A stretch of DNA of 50,905 bases, taken from the NCBI GenBank assembly GCA_017471245.1, contig JAFUVB010000026.1, forward strand, positions 1 through 50,905, given 5' to 3'. The stretch is from Prevotella sp. GTDB lineage: Bacteria > Bacteroidota > Bacteroidia > Bacteroidales > Bacteroidaceae. A program made the translations under genes and the position numbers. This document shows, one piece after another, positions 42,490 through 47,907 of the stretch (the stretch's first letter is position 1; each line of letters opens with the position of its first letter). The notes beneath the pieces are model-generated. The model was not told the DNA's origin, ran no database searches, and saw only the letters and a program-made list of their open reading frames with translations.

Positions 42490-43281
42490 TCATGCTTTTT
42501 CTATATCTCTTCTTACGTTTCCTCTGATTTTTGTCAGATAAGCTTTCATCCCATCCGCATCTTTGTTGTCGATAATTTCAAGCAGTTCTTTCAGTTCTGT
42601 GCGAATCTGAGCCACCCGATCGTGCGTATAAGGATTGAAAAGAATCTCCTGTAACAGATAGTCGTCTTCGCTGAGTACACCTTTGGCAATGCGCATGTGG
42701 CGCTTGAAGGTAGTGCCGGGGGCATCCTGATGCTTCATGACAGCAGCAAACACGAATGTGGAAACGAAAGGAATGCTCAGCGAATAGGCTACGGTCTTGT
42801 CGTGTTCCTCAAAAGTGTATTCATAGATGTTCAGCCCCAGCTTGCTGTAGAGGTCTTTGAAGAAGATGCGCCCGATGAAATCGCCTTCGCTGATGATGAT
42901 GGCATTCTCTTCGGAAAGCTGGTTCAGGTTGGCGAAGGTGGGTCCGAACATGGGGTGGGAACTCACATAATGCATGCCTGTTTGCTCATAAAACGCTTTG
43001 AGTCCGGTCTTCACCGAAGCAATATCGCTGATGATACAGTCTTTGGGCAGATAGGGAATCACCTCGTTGAACGCCGCTATTGTATACTTCATGGTCACTG
43101 CATTGATGACCAGTTCGGGCTTGAATTCTTTGATTTCCTCTAAGGATGTGAAACGCAGTGTGTTGTATGTGAACCTCAATCTTTTCGGATCCTTCTCAAA
43201 TACCGCAGTTTCATGTTCAAAACTGAGCAGGTCGAGGAAAAAACTCCCCATCTTACCTGCTCCCAGAACTAATATTCTCAT
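42490..43281 (-). CDS. tyrA: Prephenate dehydrogenase
   Basis: 263 aa. VLGAGKMGSFFLDLL at 5-19 binds NAD(P); SDIASVKTGLKAFYE and SSHPMFGPTFANL carry the conserved substrate-site Ser-Xaa-Lys and His-Pro-Met-Phe-Gly-Pro of TyrA. The helical dimer domain follows (KTVAYSLSIPFVSTFVFAAV). It makes 4-hydroxyphenylpyruvate on the way to tyrosine. No fused chorismate mutase, which is instead on the gene upstream (9-base gap). Confidence 0.92.
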   Translation of the reverse strand: MRILVLGAGKMGSFFLDLLSFEHETAVFEKDPKRLRFTYNTLRFTSLEEIKEFKPELVINAVTMKYTIAAFNEVIPYLPKDCIISDIASVKTGLKAFYEQTGMHYVSSHPMFGPTFANLNQLSEENAIIISEGDFIGRIFFKDLYSKLGLNIYEYTFEEHDKTVAYSLSIPFVSTFVFAAVMKHQDAPGTTFKRHMRIAKGVLSEDDYLLQEILFNPYTHDRVAQIRTELKELLEIIDNKDADGMKAYLTKIRGNVRRDIEKA

Positions 43282-43290
43282 AGTTGACTA

Positions 43291-44355
43291 TTATTTGTTG
43301 ATGATTTCAATCTGCTGTCGGACACTCTCTTCGTGTACTGCTTCGAAAACGCGTTTCACGAAATCGCTGTCCATGCCGCATAGTGTTCCCTGGGCGCCGC
43401 GCTTGTCGAGAATCTCATTATAGCGCTGTGCCTGCAGAACAGTCATGTTATGCTCTTTCTTATACTGGCCAATCTCCCTGCACACACGCATTCGTTTAGA
43501 CAAGAGTTCCATCATGTCGTTGTCGATTTCATCGATCTGCTTTCTCAGTTGTGTGATACCTTCAGTGGAAACCTTTTCGTCACGAATGATCAACAGGCTG
43601 AGAATGTAGTCGAGAACGTCGGGTGTCACCTGCTGTTTTGCATCACTCCAAGCATTATCAGGGTCGCAGTGGCTCTCCACGATCAGACCGTCGAAACCCA
43701 GATCCATGGCCTGTTGGCATAGCGGAGCAATCAGTTCGCGGCGCCCGCCGATATGGCTCGGGTCGCAGATGATGGGCAGGTTGGGAATGCGTCGGCGCAG
43801 TTCAATAGGAATTTGCCACATGGGCATGTTGCGGTATATCTTTTTGTCTACGCTGGAGAATCCTCTGTGAATGGCACCTAACCGCTTGATTCCCGCCTGG
43901 TTGATACGTTCAAGAGCACCAATCCACAGCTCAAGGTCGGGATTGACTGGATTCTTTACGAAAACAGGTATGTCAACGCCTTTCAGCGAATCGGCTATGG
44001 CTTGCATGGCAAAGGGGTTTGCGCTGGTTCTGGCACCAATCCATAGAATGTCGATGCCATATTCTAAGCACAGTTCCACATGCTCAGGCGTTGCCACTTC
44101 TGTCGTGATCAGCATGCCTGTCTCGTCTTTCACTCTTTTCAACCATGGCAATGCCTTCTCTCCGTTTCCCTCGAATCCTCCTGGTTTGGTACGTGGCTTC
44201 CATGCTCCGGCACGGAAATTGTGGCAGCCTTTTGCCGCTAACTGTCTGGCAGTGGTCATTACTTGCTCCTCTGTCTCTGCAGAGCATGGTCCGGCAATCA
44301 CAAACGGGCGCTCGTTATCGCTGGGCAGTTTCAGTTTTTCTAATTCAAGTTCCAT
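43291..44355 (-). CDS. Bifunctional DAHP synthase / chorismate mutase (type II)
   Basis: 354 aa. Residues about 1-255 are a DAHP synthase of the KDPS-like type (FVIAGPCSAETEEQV, RAGAWKPRTKPGGFEGNGEKALPWL, ICDPSHIGGRREL, VESHCDPDNAWSDAKQQ). Residues about 265-354 are an AroQ chorismate mutase (LRKQIDEIDNDMMELLSKRMRVCREIGQYKKEHNM). The enzyme both opens the shikimate pathway and converts chorismate to prephenate. Such fusions are common in Bacteroidetes, and the mutase part can act as a feedback sensor. Third gene of the attenuated operon. Confidence 0.94.
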   Translation of the reverse strand: MELELEKLKLPSDNERPFVIAGPCSAETEEQVMTTARQLAAKGCHNFRAGAWKPRTKPGGFEGNGEKALPWLKRVKDETGMLITTEVATPEHVELCLEYGIDILWIGARTSANPFAMQAIADSLKGVDIPVFVKNPVNPDLELWIGALERINQAGIKRLGAIHRGFSSVDKKIYRNMPMWQIPIELRRRIPNLPIICDPSHIGGRRELIAPLCQQAMDLGFDGLIVESHCDPDNAWSDAKQQVTPDVLDYILSLLIIRDEKVSTEGITQLRKQIDEIDNDMMELLSKRMRVCREIGQYKKEHNMTVLQAQRYNEILDKRGAQGTLCGMDSDFVKRVFEAVHEESVRQQIEIINK

Positions 44356-44404: not shown

Positions 44405-45574
44405 TCACCACGATAAAGCCTGGATACGCCTCAGGGCTTCTTTCATTTTGTCGTCTTTGGCGCACAGGCTGATGCGCACATAGCGTGCACCATTGCTGCC
44501 GAAGATGAAGCCGGGAGTGATAAACACGCGGGCATCGTGCAGCACGCGCTCTGTCAGCATTTCGGCATCGGAATACTTCTCCGGTATTTTTCCCCAAAGG
44601 AACATGCCTCTCTGTTTCTCGTCGAATGAACATCCGAGCGTGGTCATGATGCTTTCTGCCAGCACGCGCCTTTTCTGATAGGTCTCGATGTTGGCTTCCT
44701 GATGCCATGATGCCTCGTTGTGCATTGCCTCAGCTGCTGCGAGCTGGATGCCTCTGAAGGTTCCGCTGTCGATGTTGCTCTTTATTTTCAGGATCCATTG
44801 GATGAACTGGGCATTGGAGGCACACATTCCCACGCGCCATCCTGGCATGTTGTGGCTCTTGCTCATAGAATTGAATTCTATGCAGCAGTCTTTTGCTCCT
44901 TCAACTTGCAGTAGCGACAGCGGTTTGTCGTTTAAAATGAAAGAGTAGGGGTTGTCGTTTACCACCACTATGCCGTGTCTTTGGGCGAAATCCACCAGTT
45001 TCCTGTATGTTTCCATTTTGGCGTTGCCGCCGGTTGGCATGTTCGGATAGTTCGTCCACATCAGTTTCACGCCGTCCAAGTTCATCTTTTCCAAGGCATC
45101 GAAGTCGGGCTGCCACTCGTTGTCTTCGCGCAGGTCATAGTTGATGATCTCAGCACCGAGTATTTTGCTCAGCGATGTGTAGGTGGGATATCCGGGATTA
45201 GGCACCAATACCTTGTCGCCGCTATTGACAAACGCCAGTGTCACATGCAGAATACCTTCCTTGCTGCCGATGAGAGGCAGTATCTCCGTTTGCGGATTCA
45301 GGTCTACGCCATACCATCTGTTATAGAAGAACGCCATGGCATTGCGCAGTTCAGGTGTTCCCATTGTGGGTTGATAGCCGTGAGCGTCAGGATTCTTCGC
45401 CACTTCACACAGTTTGTCGATTGTCTGTTGCGATGGTGGCATGTCGGGACTGCCAATAGCCAGGCTGATAATGTCCTTTCCTTCTGCATTGAGTTGGGCT
45501 ATTTCTTTCAGTTTCCTGCTGAAATAGTATTCGCTCACTTGTGATAGTCTGTCGGCGGGTTGTATCTGATTCAT
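44405..45574 (-). CDS. PLP-dependent aminotransferase, class I/II
   Basis: 389 aa fold-type I aminotransferase. K239 in NSMSKSHNMPGWRVG is the PLP lysine; NDNPYSF and NYPNMPTGG are the cofactor-binding Asp-Xaa-Xaa-Tyr and Asn-Pro-like segments; the C-terminal Arg is in YVRISLCA. Position in the operon between pheA and the DAHP synthase gene suggests it transaminates phenylpyruvate or 4-hydroxyphenylpyruvate (or prephenate). 6 bases after pheA. Confidence 0.87.
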   Translation of the reverse strand: MNQIQPADRLSQVSEYYFSRKLKEIAQLNAEGKDIISLAIGSPDMPPSQQTIDKLCEVAKNPDAHGYQPTMGTPELRNAMAFFYNRWYGVDLNPQTEILPLIGSKEGILHVTLAFVNSGDKVLVPNPGYPTYTSLSKILGAEIINYDLREDNEWQPDFDALEKMNLDGVKLMWTNYPNMPTGGNAKMETYRKLVDFAQRHGIVVVNDNPYSFILNDKPLSLLQVEGAKDCCIEFNSMSKSHNMPGWRVGMCASNAQFIQWILKIKSNIDSGTFRGIQLAAAEAMHNEASWHQEANIETYQKRRVLAESIMTTLGCSFDEKQRGMFLWGKIPEKYSDAEMLTERVLHDARVFITPGFIFGSNGARYVRISLCAKDDKMKEALRRIQALSW

Positions 45575-45580
45575 ATTCTT

Positions 45581-46426
45581 TCATGATTTGGATGATTCAA
45601 AACTGATGTACTCTCCCAGGATTTTCATCTCCTTGGTGAGCGGGGCGATGGCATCGATGCTCTGCCTGTAGCGTGTGAGGTTGTCGTAAGCGACATCCAC
45701 GTAGAACATATACTCCCATTCGTGTCCGATGATGGGCAGCGACTGAATCTTGGTCAGGTTGATACGATAGAACGAAAGGATGCTCAGCACTTGCGACAGC
45801 GACCCTTCTTCGTGGGGCAATGAGAACACGAGGCTTGCCTTATCCACCTTTTCCAATGGTCGCAAGAAGTCGGCTTTCATGGGGTTGCATACCACGAGAA
45901 ACCTTGTGAAGTTATGTTTGTTGTCTTCAATACTGTCTTCCAAGATGCGCATGCCATACATTTCGGCTGCTTCCCTGCTGCAAATAGCCGCCCATCCTCT
46001 GCACTGGTGCTTTGAAATATAGATGGCAGAGCCTGCGGTGTCTTCTGCTTCCACTGCTTTCAGCTCAGGATGGTTGGAAAGGAAGCCCCTGCATTGCATC
46101 AGCGCTACGGGGTGGGAGTGCACTTCCACAATAGTCGTCCAGTCGTCTTCAGGCAGACAGCAGATGCAATGGCTGATGTGCAGCTTGTGTTCACCTACAA
46201 CGGCATATCCGGAATCGCGCAACAGTTCGTAGTTGTGCAGCAGTGAGCCGGCAATAGTATTCTCAATCGCCATCATGCCGATGGCTGTAGGGTCGCGCTT
46301 GATATTCTCAAACACCTGCTCGAATGTGGAGCAGCAGATGAGCTGCACTTGTTCGTCTTTGAAAAACTGCCTGGCAGCCATGTCATGAAACGATCCGATC
46401 AATCCTTGTATAGCAATTCTTTTCAC
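45581..46426 (-). CDS. pheA: Prephenate dehydratase
   Basis: 281 aa. Residues 1-180 are the dehydratase domain with MAIENTIAGSLLHNYELL, and NFTRFLVV (Thr-Arg-Phe at 174-176) is the catalytic motif. Residues about 195-275 are an ACT domain (SLVFSLPHEEGSLSQVLSIL). The Phe-sensing ESRP motif of E. coli PheA reads QSLP here (228-231), so allosteric control may differ. No fused mutase. First gene of the operon, 27 bases after the attenuator hairpin. Confidence 0.94.
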   Translation of the reverse strand: MKRIAIQGLIGSFHDMAARQFFKDEQVQLICCSTFEQVFENIKRDPTAIGMMAIENTIAGSLLHNYELLRDSGYAVVGEHKLHISHCICCLPEDDWTTIVEVHSHPVALMQCRGFLSNHPELKAVEAEDTAGSAIYISKHQCRGWAAICSREAAEMYGMRILEDSIEDNKHNFTRFLVVCNPMKADFLRPLEKVDKASLVFSLPHEEGSLSQVLSILSFYRINLTKIQSLPIIGHEWEYMFYVDVAYDNLTRYRQSIDAIAPLTKEMKILGEYISFESSKS

Positions 46427-46453
46427 GTTCTTTGTTTTAAAAGCATTAAAAAA

Positions 46454-46480
46454 GCCCCGTCTTAATTATTAAGGCGGGAC
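46454..46480 (-). terminator. Attenuator terminator before pheA
   Basis: On the minus strand GTCCCGCCTTAA (46480-46469), loop TAA, TTAAGACGGGGC (46465-46454), then TTTTTT (46453-46448). The stem has 10 Watson-Crick pairs, one G-U and one mismatch. It sits between the leader peptide and pheA, so it must be read through for the operon to be expressed. Its 5' arm (TCCCGC) can instead pair with GCGGGA at 46537-46532 in the leader peptide gene, which would be the antiterminator. Confidence 0.85.
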
Positions 46481-46519
46481 TCTGATGTATTCTGATTGAT
46501 TAATTTCTTACGTTGAGAT

Positions 46520-46597
46520 TTACATGCAACTTCCCGCTTCACAGTTACCTGCAAAGTAAAAATAAAAGTAATAGAAAGATGCATTCTGATGATTCAT
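46520..46597 (-). CDS. Phe/Tyr-rich leader peptide of the aromatic operon
   Basis: 25-codon open frame on the minus strand. Codons 8-15 (46576-46553) read FYYFYFYF, four Phe and four Tyr in a row; the stop is TAA at 46520. It begins 27 bases after a consensus promoter and ends 39 bases before the attenuator hairpin. Ribosome stalling on the run when charged tRNA-Phe or tRNA-Tyr is scarce should free the 3' part of the frame (GCGGGA) to pair with the terminator arm. The frame is too short for standard gene calling. Similarity to known phe leaders is in logic, not in sequence. Confidence 0.88.
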   Translation of the reverse strand: MNHQNASFYYFYFYFAGNCEAGSCM

Positions 46598-46623
46598 ACT
46601 CTTCGTTTTTTTATTTTCGGATG

Positions 46624-46655
46624 CAAAATTAAACTATTTCTTTGAATTGAACAAA
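46624..46655 (-). promoter_or_regulatory. Promoter of the attenuated aromatic operon
   Basis: On the minus strand TTTG (46655-46652) and TAATTTTG (46631-46624) are separated by 20 bases, the standard Bacteroidetes arrangement. Transcription should start near 46618, about 20 bases before the leader peptide ATG. Confidence 0.75.
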
Positions 46656-46703
46656 CATTTTTCAACATTTTTGATGAGAAAACTGCAAATTGTTTGTTTT
46701 TGT

Positions 46704-46795
46704 CAGTTTACGCTGACTATCGAACTGGCGGTCTCATTTGTCATGTTTTCAGTATGCACTGACTATTGAGCCGGCGGCATCATTTGTCATATTTT
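46704..46795. repeat. 46-bp tandem duplication at the 3' end of the PL10 gene
   Basis: 46750-46795 and 46704-46749 match at 37 of 46 positions. The first copy contains the last codons and stop of the pectate lyase gene, the second lies just beyond it, so this is an old tandem duplication of the gene end. Confidence 0.7.
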
Positions 46796-47907
46796 GCTTT
46801 CCATTTGTCGTACTTAGCATACAGACTGGCAGGTGCGTCGCTGTACCATCCGTACCCGTTGCGCCGCTCATGACCGATTTCGCTCAAGTTCTTCCTGGGT
46901 ATGCCGTCGCGGTCGCAGAAGAAAGGCTGTTCGTTTTTCAGGTCATAATAGCGCGCCCAGATGGGTGGGGCTTGCGGATCGCTGACCACTCGCCGGTCAA
47001 GTTGTCCGTTTTCATTCCTATATGTCTCCACTCTGATACCCGTCAGCTTATGTGCCTCAAACCACTGCATTGCACCGTTGACGGCAGCTTTTATGCGATT
47101 GTCGGGATTAGGTATCTCCATGAGGAGCCTTACCAGTGCTGCACTCTCAGAGGAACAGTAAGAAGCGAGTTCAAAAGCCCGTGCCGGTGCCGGTTTCAGA
47201 GTCTCTTTGTCGTGCTGCTGGCACCAAACGGTAGGCTTTCCATTCACCACAATCTGCGTGTTCAGGATGCATTCCACTCCCTTGTCGAAAGCAGTGGTCA
47301 GCCTTTTTTTCATTTTTTCATCAACCAAGTTGCCGAATGGCGCTTTTCCGTCGCGAAGATTGCGGATCACTTGCAGGGTCTGCACCATGGCATTGTCGTT
47401 ATAGGTGATGTGAACCTGATATCCGCGGTTCTCAGGCCAGAACTGTGGCCAGCCGCCATTCTCGTATTGTCCGCTGAGCATGAACTCCAGACCTTTCAGG
47501 AACGCATCTTTATATCGTTTCAGGTCTTCTTCGTCGTTGGGGTTCTTCTGTTCCGACAATACATTGTATAGCCTTGCCAGATAGGTCATCTCGGTAATGG
47601 TGGCATCATTGTCGGTTGTAGAGTCGTTGCGTTTGCTCTTGTCGGCAAGCACGATGTCTCTTTCCAGTCCTAATTCGCGGTGAATGGGAAGGTTTTTCGG
47701 CCATCCTCCGGTGATGCGCTGATAGTCGAGCACGTTTTGAGCTATGCGCCGTGCCTCGGGAGTCATGAAGAATTCGTCGGGATAGGAGCGGGCAATCTGC
47801 TTCCATTCGTGCGAAGTGTAGCTGTAGTCACGGTGTCCTTGCAGGTGTTGAGCATGGACGGCGGTTGCGATAACAGCGATGATGATGCTTGATATGATTC
47901 TTTTCAT
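46780..47907 (-). CDS. Secreted PL10 pectate lyase
   Basis: 375 aa with a signal peptide ending near VHAQ. PelA/Pel-15E (PL10) features: YQRITGGWPKNLP, DNDATITEMTYLARLY, YENGGWPQFWP, HITYNDNAMVQTLQVI, WCQQHDKETLKPAPARAFELAS (the Arg of PARAFE being the likely base) and GWYSDAPASLYAKYDKWKAKY at the C-terminus. Cleaves polygalacturonate with calcium. It is a single-domain relative of the N-terminal half of the fusion protein at 1786-4425 but not a recent copy of it. Monocistronic. Confidence 0.92.
   Translation of the reverse strand: MKRIISSIIIAVIATAVHAQHLQGHRDYSYTSHEWKQIARSYPDEFFMTPEARRIAQNVLDYQRITGGWPKNLPIHRELGLERDIVLADKSKRNDSTTDNDATITEMTYLARLYNVLSEQKNPNDEEDLKRYKDAFLKGLEFMLSGQYENGGWPQFWPENRGYQVHITYNDNAMVQTLQVIRNLRDGKAPFGNLVDEKMKKRLTTAFDKGVECILNTQIVVNGKPTVWCQQHDKETLKPAPARAFELASYCSSESAALVRLLMEIPNPDNRIKAAVNGAMQWFEAHKLTGIRVETYRNENGQLDRRVVSDPQAPPIWARYYDLKNEQPFFCDRDGIPRKNLSEIGHERRNGYGWYSDAPASLYAKYDKWKAKYDK

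Follow-up and report, generated by a model that had tools for sequence, protein, structure and literature searches.

A putative class-I attenuator with a mixed Phe/Tyr leader ahead of the pheA operon of a Prevotella sp., and its counterparts across the class

The question raised by this locus is what a short reading frame with an unbroken run of Phe and Tyr codons might be doing between the promoter and the first gene of a Prevotella operon for aromatic amino acids. In the 50,905-nt stretch of DNA that was analysed as a whole (the window), this operon lies on the minus strand, as do all parts of its leader. It begins with pheA, coding for a prephenate dehydratase from a GTG start (45581..46426; Pfam PF00800; best NCBIfam match prephenate dehydratase, under the curated cut-off), and continues with the genes for a class I/II aminotransferase (short name aspC; 44405..45574; PF00155), a DAHP synthase fused to chorismate mutase (short name aroF/CM; 43291..44355; PF00793 and PF01817) and the prephenate dehydrogenase tyrA (42490..43281; PF02153), in that order and with intergenic gaps of 6, 49 and 9 nt. 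A base-by-base check of the region upstream bore out the leader observation of the initial annotation as a whole. The promoter that it had noted is present and is of the Bacteroidetes type, TTTG-N20-TAATTTTG (46624..46655), with TTTG at 46652-46655 and TAATTTTG at 46624-46631. It is followed by a leader ORF of 25 codons, MNHQNASFYYFYFYFAGNCEAGSCM (46520..46597), in which codons 8-15 form the previously described run of eight consecutive Phe/Tyr codons, FYYFYFYF (46553..46576), a candidate regulatory run by virtue of its sequence and of the aromatic runs in relatives. As also reported earlier, 39 nt separate the leader stop codon from the start of a terminator hairpin, GTCCCGCCTTAATAATTAAGACGGGGC (46454..46480, regions 3:4), which runs into a T6 tract (46448..46453) where an attenuated transcript would be expected to end, hairpin and tract together spanning 46448-46480. 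The GTG of pheA (46426) starts 21 nt past this T run, a distance that had been given as 27 bases. The proposed complementarity likewise exists in the sequence: GCGGGA within the leader (region 2; 46532..46537), the predicted 5' arm of an antiterminator, can pair with TCCCGC (region 3; 46474..46479), which is the 5' arm of the terminator and would double as the 3' arm of the antiterminator. Region 2 starts 15 nt past the last aromatic codon and ends 9 nt ahead of the stop codon.

The eight-codon TTY/TAY run is unique in the 50.9-kb window when all frames are scanned, and none was found in 40 mononucleotide-shuffled windows. For the terminator segment (46445-46520) the folding energy is -15.9 kcal/mol, with a z of -3.3 versus dinucleotide shuffles, of which 1/200 was as good. 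Neither a sigma-70 promoter scan nor a simple terminator scan of the window listed the promoter ahead of the leader or the leader hairpin, respectively; an internal C/A mismatch is probably behind the absence of the latter. The window has a single leader unit, and its leader holds no Trp codons. The nearest named match is Prevotella sp. UBA4268, with a PheA that is 95% identical, where the same leader peptide is preceded, as called, by two extra N-terminal residues (locus L362). Further upstream, between the pheA promoter and a pectate lyase gene (46780-47907), two adjacent copies of a 46-nt direct repeat, 78% identical, occupy 46700-46791, at the 3' end of that gene and just after it.

Based on this arrangement we propose that the element is a class-I ribosome-mediated transcription attenuator acting as a mixed Phe/Tyr sensor for the joint pheA-aminotransferase-DAHP synthase/chorismate mutase-tyrA operon, a reading to which we assign a probability of roughly nine in ten. 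In such a system, a shortage of charged tRNA-Phe or tRNA-Tyr would stall the ribosome in the aromatic run of the leader, leaving GCGGGA free to pair with TCCCGC while the remainder of the terminator has yet to be transcribed; with the antiterminator formed, RNA polymerase would read on into pheA. When both charged tRNAs are plentiful, the ribosome would run on to the stop codon, which lies 9 nt beyond GCGGGA, and would cover that arm, so that the terminator hairpin would form and transcription would end at T6. We infer that stalling, termination and read-through of this kind take place in vivo and that a shortage of one of the two amino acids would be signal enough.

We then examined the upstream regions of pheA in relatives. 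Searches for PheA matched 126 of 295 order-level, 47 of 60 genus, 99 of 121 family and 258 of 296 phylum genomes. From among these matches we read the upstream DNA of 234 loci (L001-L234): 110 of the 126 order-level loci, the best-scoring 30 of 47 from the genus and 32 of 99 from the family (counting overlaps and the locus of the window itself), as well as 67 of the 258 from the phylum, picked from the better matches and spread over families. Two loci with less than 200 nt upstream (L084 and L124) were dropped, leaving 165 order-level loci (genus, family and window included), 41 from other orders of the class and 26 from other classes. A stretch with at least five Phe/Tyr in eight residues occurs in 160/165, 39/41 and 5/26 of these upstream regions, respectively, as against 21, 3 and 2 on the opposite strand and 46/825, 19/205 and 1/130 shuffles; raising the cut-off to six of eight retains 158, 30 and 5 loci, as against 2, 0 and 0 on the opposite strand and 9/825, 4/205 and 1/130 shuffles. 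The complete unit of leader and terminator, as called by a second detector, was found in 158/165 order-level, 38/41 class-level and 6/26 other-class loci, one of the six (L104) looking spurious. Nine further order-level loci, kept outside the main counts, added the unit in five (G024, G055, G093, G004 and G294), and it was not found in the other four (G176, G268, G072 and G163). In named genomes, of which 590 matched, the 80 best loci were kept, mostly from Prevotella and its relatives; 79 of them have the unit, including that of Phocaeicola vulgatus ATCC 8482. Within the class, then, most of the pheA loci sampled have the predicted leader-terminator element, whereas most of those sampled from other classes lack it. 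The Bacteroidetes promoter motif lies 5' of the first leader in 103/196 loci versus 11/1960 mononucleotide shuffles.

The exceptions are of several kinds. Ten order- and class-level loci were missed by the second detector; in L133, L154, L166 and L211 the leaders were paired with a hairpin by the first detector only. The idea that misses of the first detector reflect loss of the terminator was rejected, as on reading most such loci have bulged hairpins that the second detector catches. No leader was found upstream in three loci where pheA stands alone (L025, L121 and L178). In L205 and L208 (G581 and G546) the leader is found ahead of a DAHP synthase gene that shares the strand of pheA and lies about 2.5 kb upstream of it. 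In L028 and L298, both from a 1.2-Mb genome (G091), the order pheA-aminotransferase-DAHP synthase-tyrA is kept and no aromatic leader was found. The first unit of L401, as detected, looks spurious. In three loci from other classes of the phylum (L096, L102 and L104) PheA sits in open frames of about 700 aa, suggestive of a fusion with another enzyme, and the first two of these retain a Phe/Tyr leader despite such frames.

Furthermore, the leader and the terminator change in concert. Taking one unit from each of 58 families, the leader:terminator pairing score is 12.55, versus 9.38 (sd 0.23) with permuted terminators, with 0/1000 permutations as high; own pairing exceeds the mean for other terminators in 56 of the 58 families. 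Arms that change together across families include TCCTGCC with GGCAGGA, AGCCTCG with CGAGGCT and TCCCGAG with CTCGGGA. The region-2 arm starts 7-15 nt past the run (5th-95th percentile of 226 units, within a search range of 4-45 nt), and an uninterrupted antiterminator of at least 6 bp is available in 215/226 units, with a median of 8 bp and with 6 bp in the window. Some far-off pairing matches (L009, L168, L190, L192 and L206) look spurious, the terminator of the wrong unit having been paired. Pairing of region 2 with sequence on its 5' side, as in a 1:2 protector hairpin, shows a modest excess in 58 leaders (0.72 versus 0.60 in mononucleotide-shuffled sequences), a sample with up to five leaders from the window's family and with arms below 6 bp omitted. 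Comparison of orthologous leaders, which the initial annotation had suggested as a check, has in this way found the aromatic codon run, the terminator and a co-varying antiterminator arm to be kept, and supports the class-I reading.

Taken by itself, the window is less telling as to the pairing. Its own pairing does not stand out, the window leader scoring as high with 17 of 40 foreign terminators, and its antiterminator segment has a z of -1.7, with 15/200 shuffles as good; the case for a mutually exclusive switch is one that relatives, rather than the window alone, would carry. The energies of the antiterminator and terminator segments are close (-16.2 versus -15.9 kcal/mol), and when all RNA beyond a stalled ribosome is folded at equilibrium, the terminator is still the preferred structure. 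Such folding was accordingly dropped as proof of a switch, the terminator being favoured in either state. Since the complete RNA prefers the terminator, the proposed switch would have to be kinetic, decided by which structure forms first. The assignment to class I draws on a leader ORF with codons for the products, an intrinsic terminator before the first gene, exclusive pairing as seen across families, and the spacing of these parts.

The presence of both Phe and Tyr codons in the run had been put down to the joint control of pheA and tyrA, and we therefore compared codon content with operon content in 81 stretches (61 with the window, and 20 more). In 13 genomes pheA stands alone within its stretch of about 5 kb, one further stretch (G163) being too short to judge. 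No leader was found in six of the 13 (G108, G256, G142, G176, G268 and G072, the last with a weak aminotransferase match). The other seven leaders, from four families (G018, G028, G237, G244, G038, G099 and G284), are Phe-dominated, with Y/(F+Y) of 0-0.20. By comparison, in 59 joint operons with DAHP synthase downstream of pheA, the window included, Y/(F+Y) ranges over 0.18-0.78 (median 0.41), and no operon has fewer than two Tyr codons when its unit or units are taken together. Five joint loci that had no earlier unit all have mixed leaders and were kept outside the test. DAHP synthase and prephenate dehydrogenase were then searched for in 14 genomes, ten of them with pheA alone. In nine of these ten the detached genes (aminotransferase, DAHP synthase and/or tyrA) come with a leader and terminator of their own, the leader of G038 lying ahead of a prephenate dehydrogenase identified by Pfam only; in the tenth, G244, the gene is at the contig start and the unit was not seen. 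These detached-gene leaders (n=11) have a median Y/(F+Y) of 0.57; G581 and G546 were excluded from the group, as their leader precedes a gene close to pheA. Counter to the pattern, no leader was found upstream of the lone tyrA of G041 or, in G099 and G284, of a second DAHP synthase gene. One-sided Mann-Whitney tests give 1e-5 for alone versus joint, 2.5e-4 for alone versus detached and 1.6e-5 for detached versus joint, values that overstate independence because related genomes are not independent and the seven pheA-alone leaders come from four families. What can be said firmly is that four families have Phe-dominated leaders where pheA stands alone, which supports the earlier explanation of the mixed run.

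In some lineages Trp may be sensed as well. Within the runs of 180 order-level units, Trp makes up 22/147 of the non-Phe/Tyr residues versus 22/2784 elsewhere in the same peptides, and within those of 40 class-level units 12/64 versus 7/503, an excess somewhat favoured by the counting of Trp as aromatic in unit detection and by the extension of runs over adjacent Trp. Since DAHP synthase also feeds Trp, a sensor of three products (Phe, Tyr and Trp) is plausible in these lineages. As for other amino acids in the window's genome, a scan directly upstream of genes that need not head their operons found no ORF reaching 4/10 His or Trp ahead of hisG (L358) and trpE (L359), and only ordinary ORFs with 4/10 of common residues ahead of ilvD (L360) and the homoserine dehydrogenase gene (L361).

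In 24 of the 202 unit-bearing loci, drawn from 14 of 58 families, we observed two units in series (among them L005, L009, L014, L021, L022, L163, L184, L190 and L195); further doubles are the loci of G024 and G093 and the detached operons of G099 and G284. As called, the second ORF of the 24 loci starts 3-53 nt past the first terminator. The promoter core TAnnTTTG, found 5' of the first unit in 162/196 loci versus 157/1960 shuffles, is absent between the first terminator and the second run in 24/24. The second units have an antiterminator pairing of their own (12.29 versus 8.93 when permuted; 0/1000 as high; 23/24 above the mean of others). A division of labour between the members of a tandem, one for Phe and one for Tyr, was rejected, as both residues are present in every first and every second unit of the 24 tandems. 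We posit that the doubling is likely to be a two-step checkpoint instead.

Attenuation by a stalled leader ribosome must be weighed against other uses of the same parts. Were the product of the ORF a small peptide, hydrophobic and aromatic, that is functional in its own right, with the hairpin merely ending the peptide gene, the strong hydrophobicity of the leader peptide and the conservation of its C-terminal part CEAGSC in many loci of the genus would be accounted for; yet families differ widely in the order of Phe and Tyr, in length and in the C-terminus but keep the aromatic content, the C-terminal part encodes the antiterminator arm and changes along with the terminator across families, and Tyr is nearly lost where pheA stands alone, so that we hold this account to be very improbable. 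We give even less credence to a leader sensed by other means, such as a riboswitch, a T-box or a protein-binding attenuator, with the ORF being incidental. While T-boxes or RNA-binding proteins are well established as serving amino-acid operons in other phyla, 4227 Rfam families, T-box included, gave 0 matches to the window at gathering score, and the aromatic codons are themselves the conserved element.

A little less improbable, though still quite unlikely, is that stalling in the leader controls the translation of pheA or the access of Rho rather than intrinsic termination. The weak T tracts past the hairpins of L034, L049, L063 and L065 would fit this, but the window hairpin has its T6, and hairpins with T-rich tails and matching leader arms recur across families. 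Intrinsic termination governed by the leader ribosome remains the reading that we prefer, and the leader is probably a starvation switch of the aromatic amino-acid operon.

Class-I attenuation of pheA is established in enterobacteria, the leader of E. coli sensing Phe. The locus resembles pheL-pheA of E. coli and Salmonella in that a Phe-rich leader ORF and alternative antiterminator and terminator structures precede pheA; it differs in that the run mixes Phe and Tyr, with Trp too in some relatives, in that the operon also holds DAHP synthase and tyrA, and in its Bacteroidetes promoter and the doubling in series in some relatives. Bacteroidetes attenuators may be mentioned in the review that Vitreschak and colleagues published in 2004 and in the 2010 survey of Lopatovskaya and colleagues. 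The Bacteroid-trp RNA motif (Rfam RF01692), which we take to be a trp attenuator, had no covariance-model match in the window or in the window's genome. That motif was listed in 2010 as a cis-regulatory motif of Bacteroidetes (PMC2864571), pheA is listed among attenuated operons (PMC1183508), leader genes are described as close to their structural genes, Bacteroidetes included (PMC4833913), the transcriptome of B. thetaiotaomicron has sORFs reminiscent of leader peptides (PMC7366714), and a 2010 survey knew of no leader-peptide system outside Proteobacteria and Actinobacteria, ermC apart (PMC2965389). The remark in the initial annotation that such control is little described for Bacteroidetes is right in part: clues to leader-peptide attenuation upstream of amino-acid operons, and a pheA 5' element conserved in other genera of Flavobacteriaceae, were reported for Flavobacterium psychrophilum in 2021, in a section that mentions no codon run and no antiterminator, nor compares operons or describes a tandem arrangement (PMC9723704). 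The closest likeness to the doubled leaders among the matches listed is the tandem attenuation of Salmonella mgtCBR, where two leader ORFs act in one leader RNA and answer different signals, ATP and proline (PMC3641672); in the doubled units of the relatives studied here, by contrast, both have Phe/Tyr runs and terminators of their own. A match of codons to operon or a doubled amino-acid leader was reported in none of the matches listed, which is weak evidence, most subscription journals lying outside their coverage.

The kind of attenuator is thus a known one, and what the comparison adds is most likely a widespread mixed-aromatic attenuator of the class, with a codon mix that follows the operon and a unit that is sometimes doubled. 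In its fullest form, which we regard as fairly probable, this would mean that across the class the codon mix is set by the output of the operon, being Phe-dominated with pheA alone, Phe plus Tyr with DAHP synthase and tyrA, richer in Tyr where those genes are detached, and with Trp added in some lineages, and that in 14 of 58 families the unit is doubled behind one promoter, giving two Phe/Tyr checkpoints and a steeper response. Translation would then have to keep close pace with transcription in these bacteria, and the leader would offer a ready test of that coupling. The doubled loci would provide natural examples of two similar attenuators in a row, in which the contribution of the second could be studied. 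More generally, there may be a readable rule here, in which the codon run of a leader reports the end products charged to its operon and changes when the operon is split.
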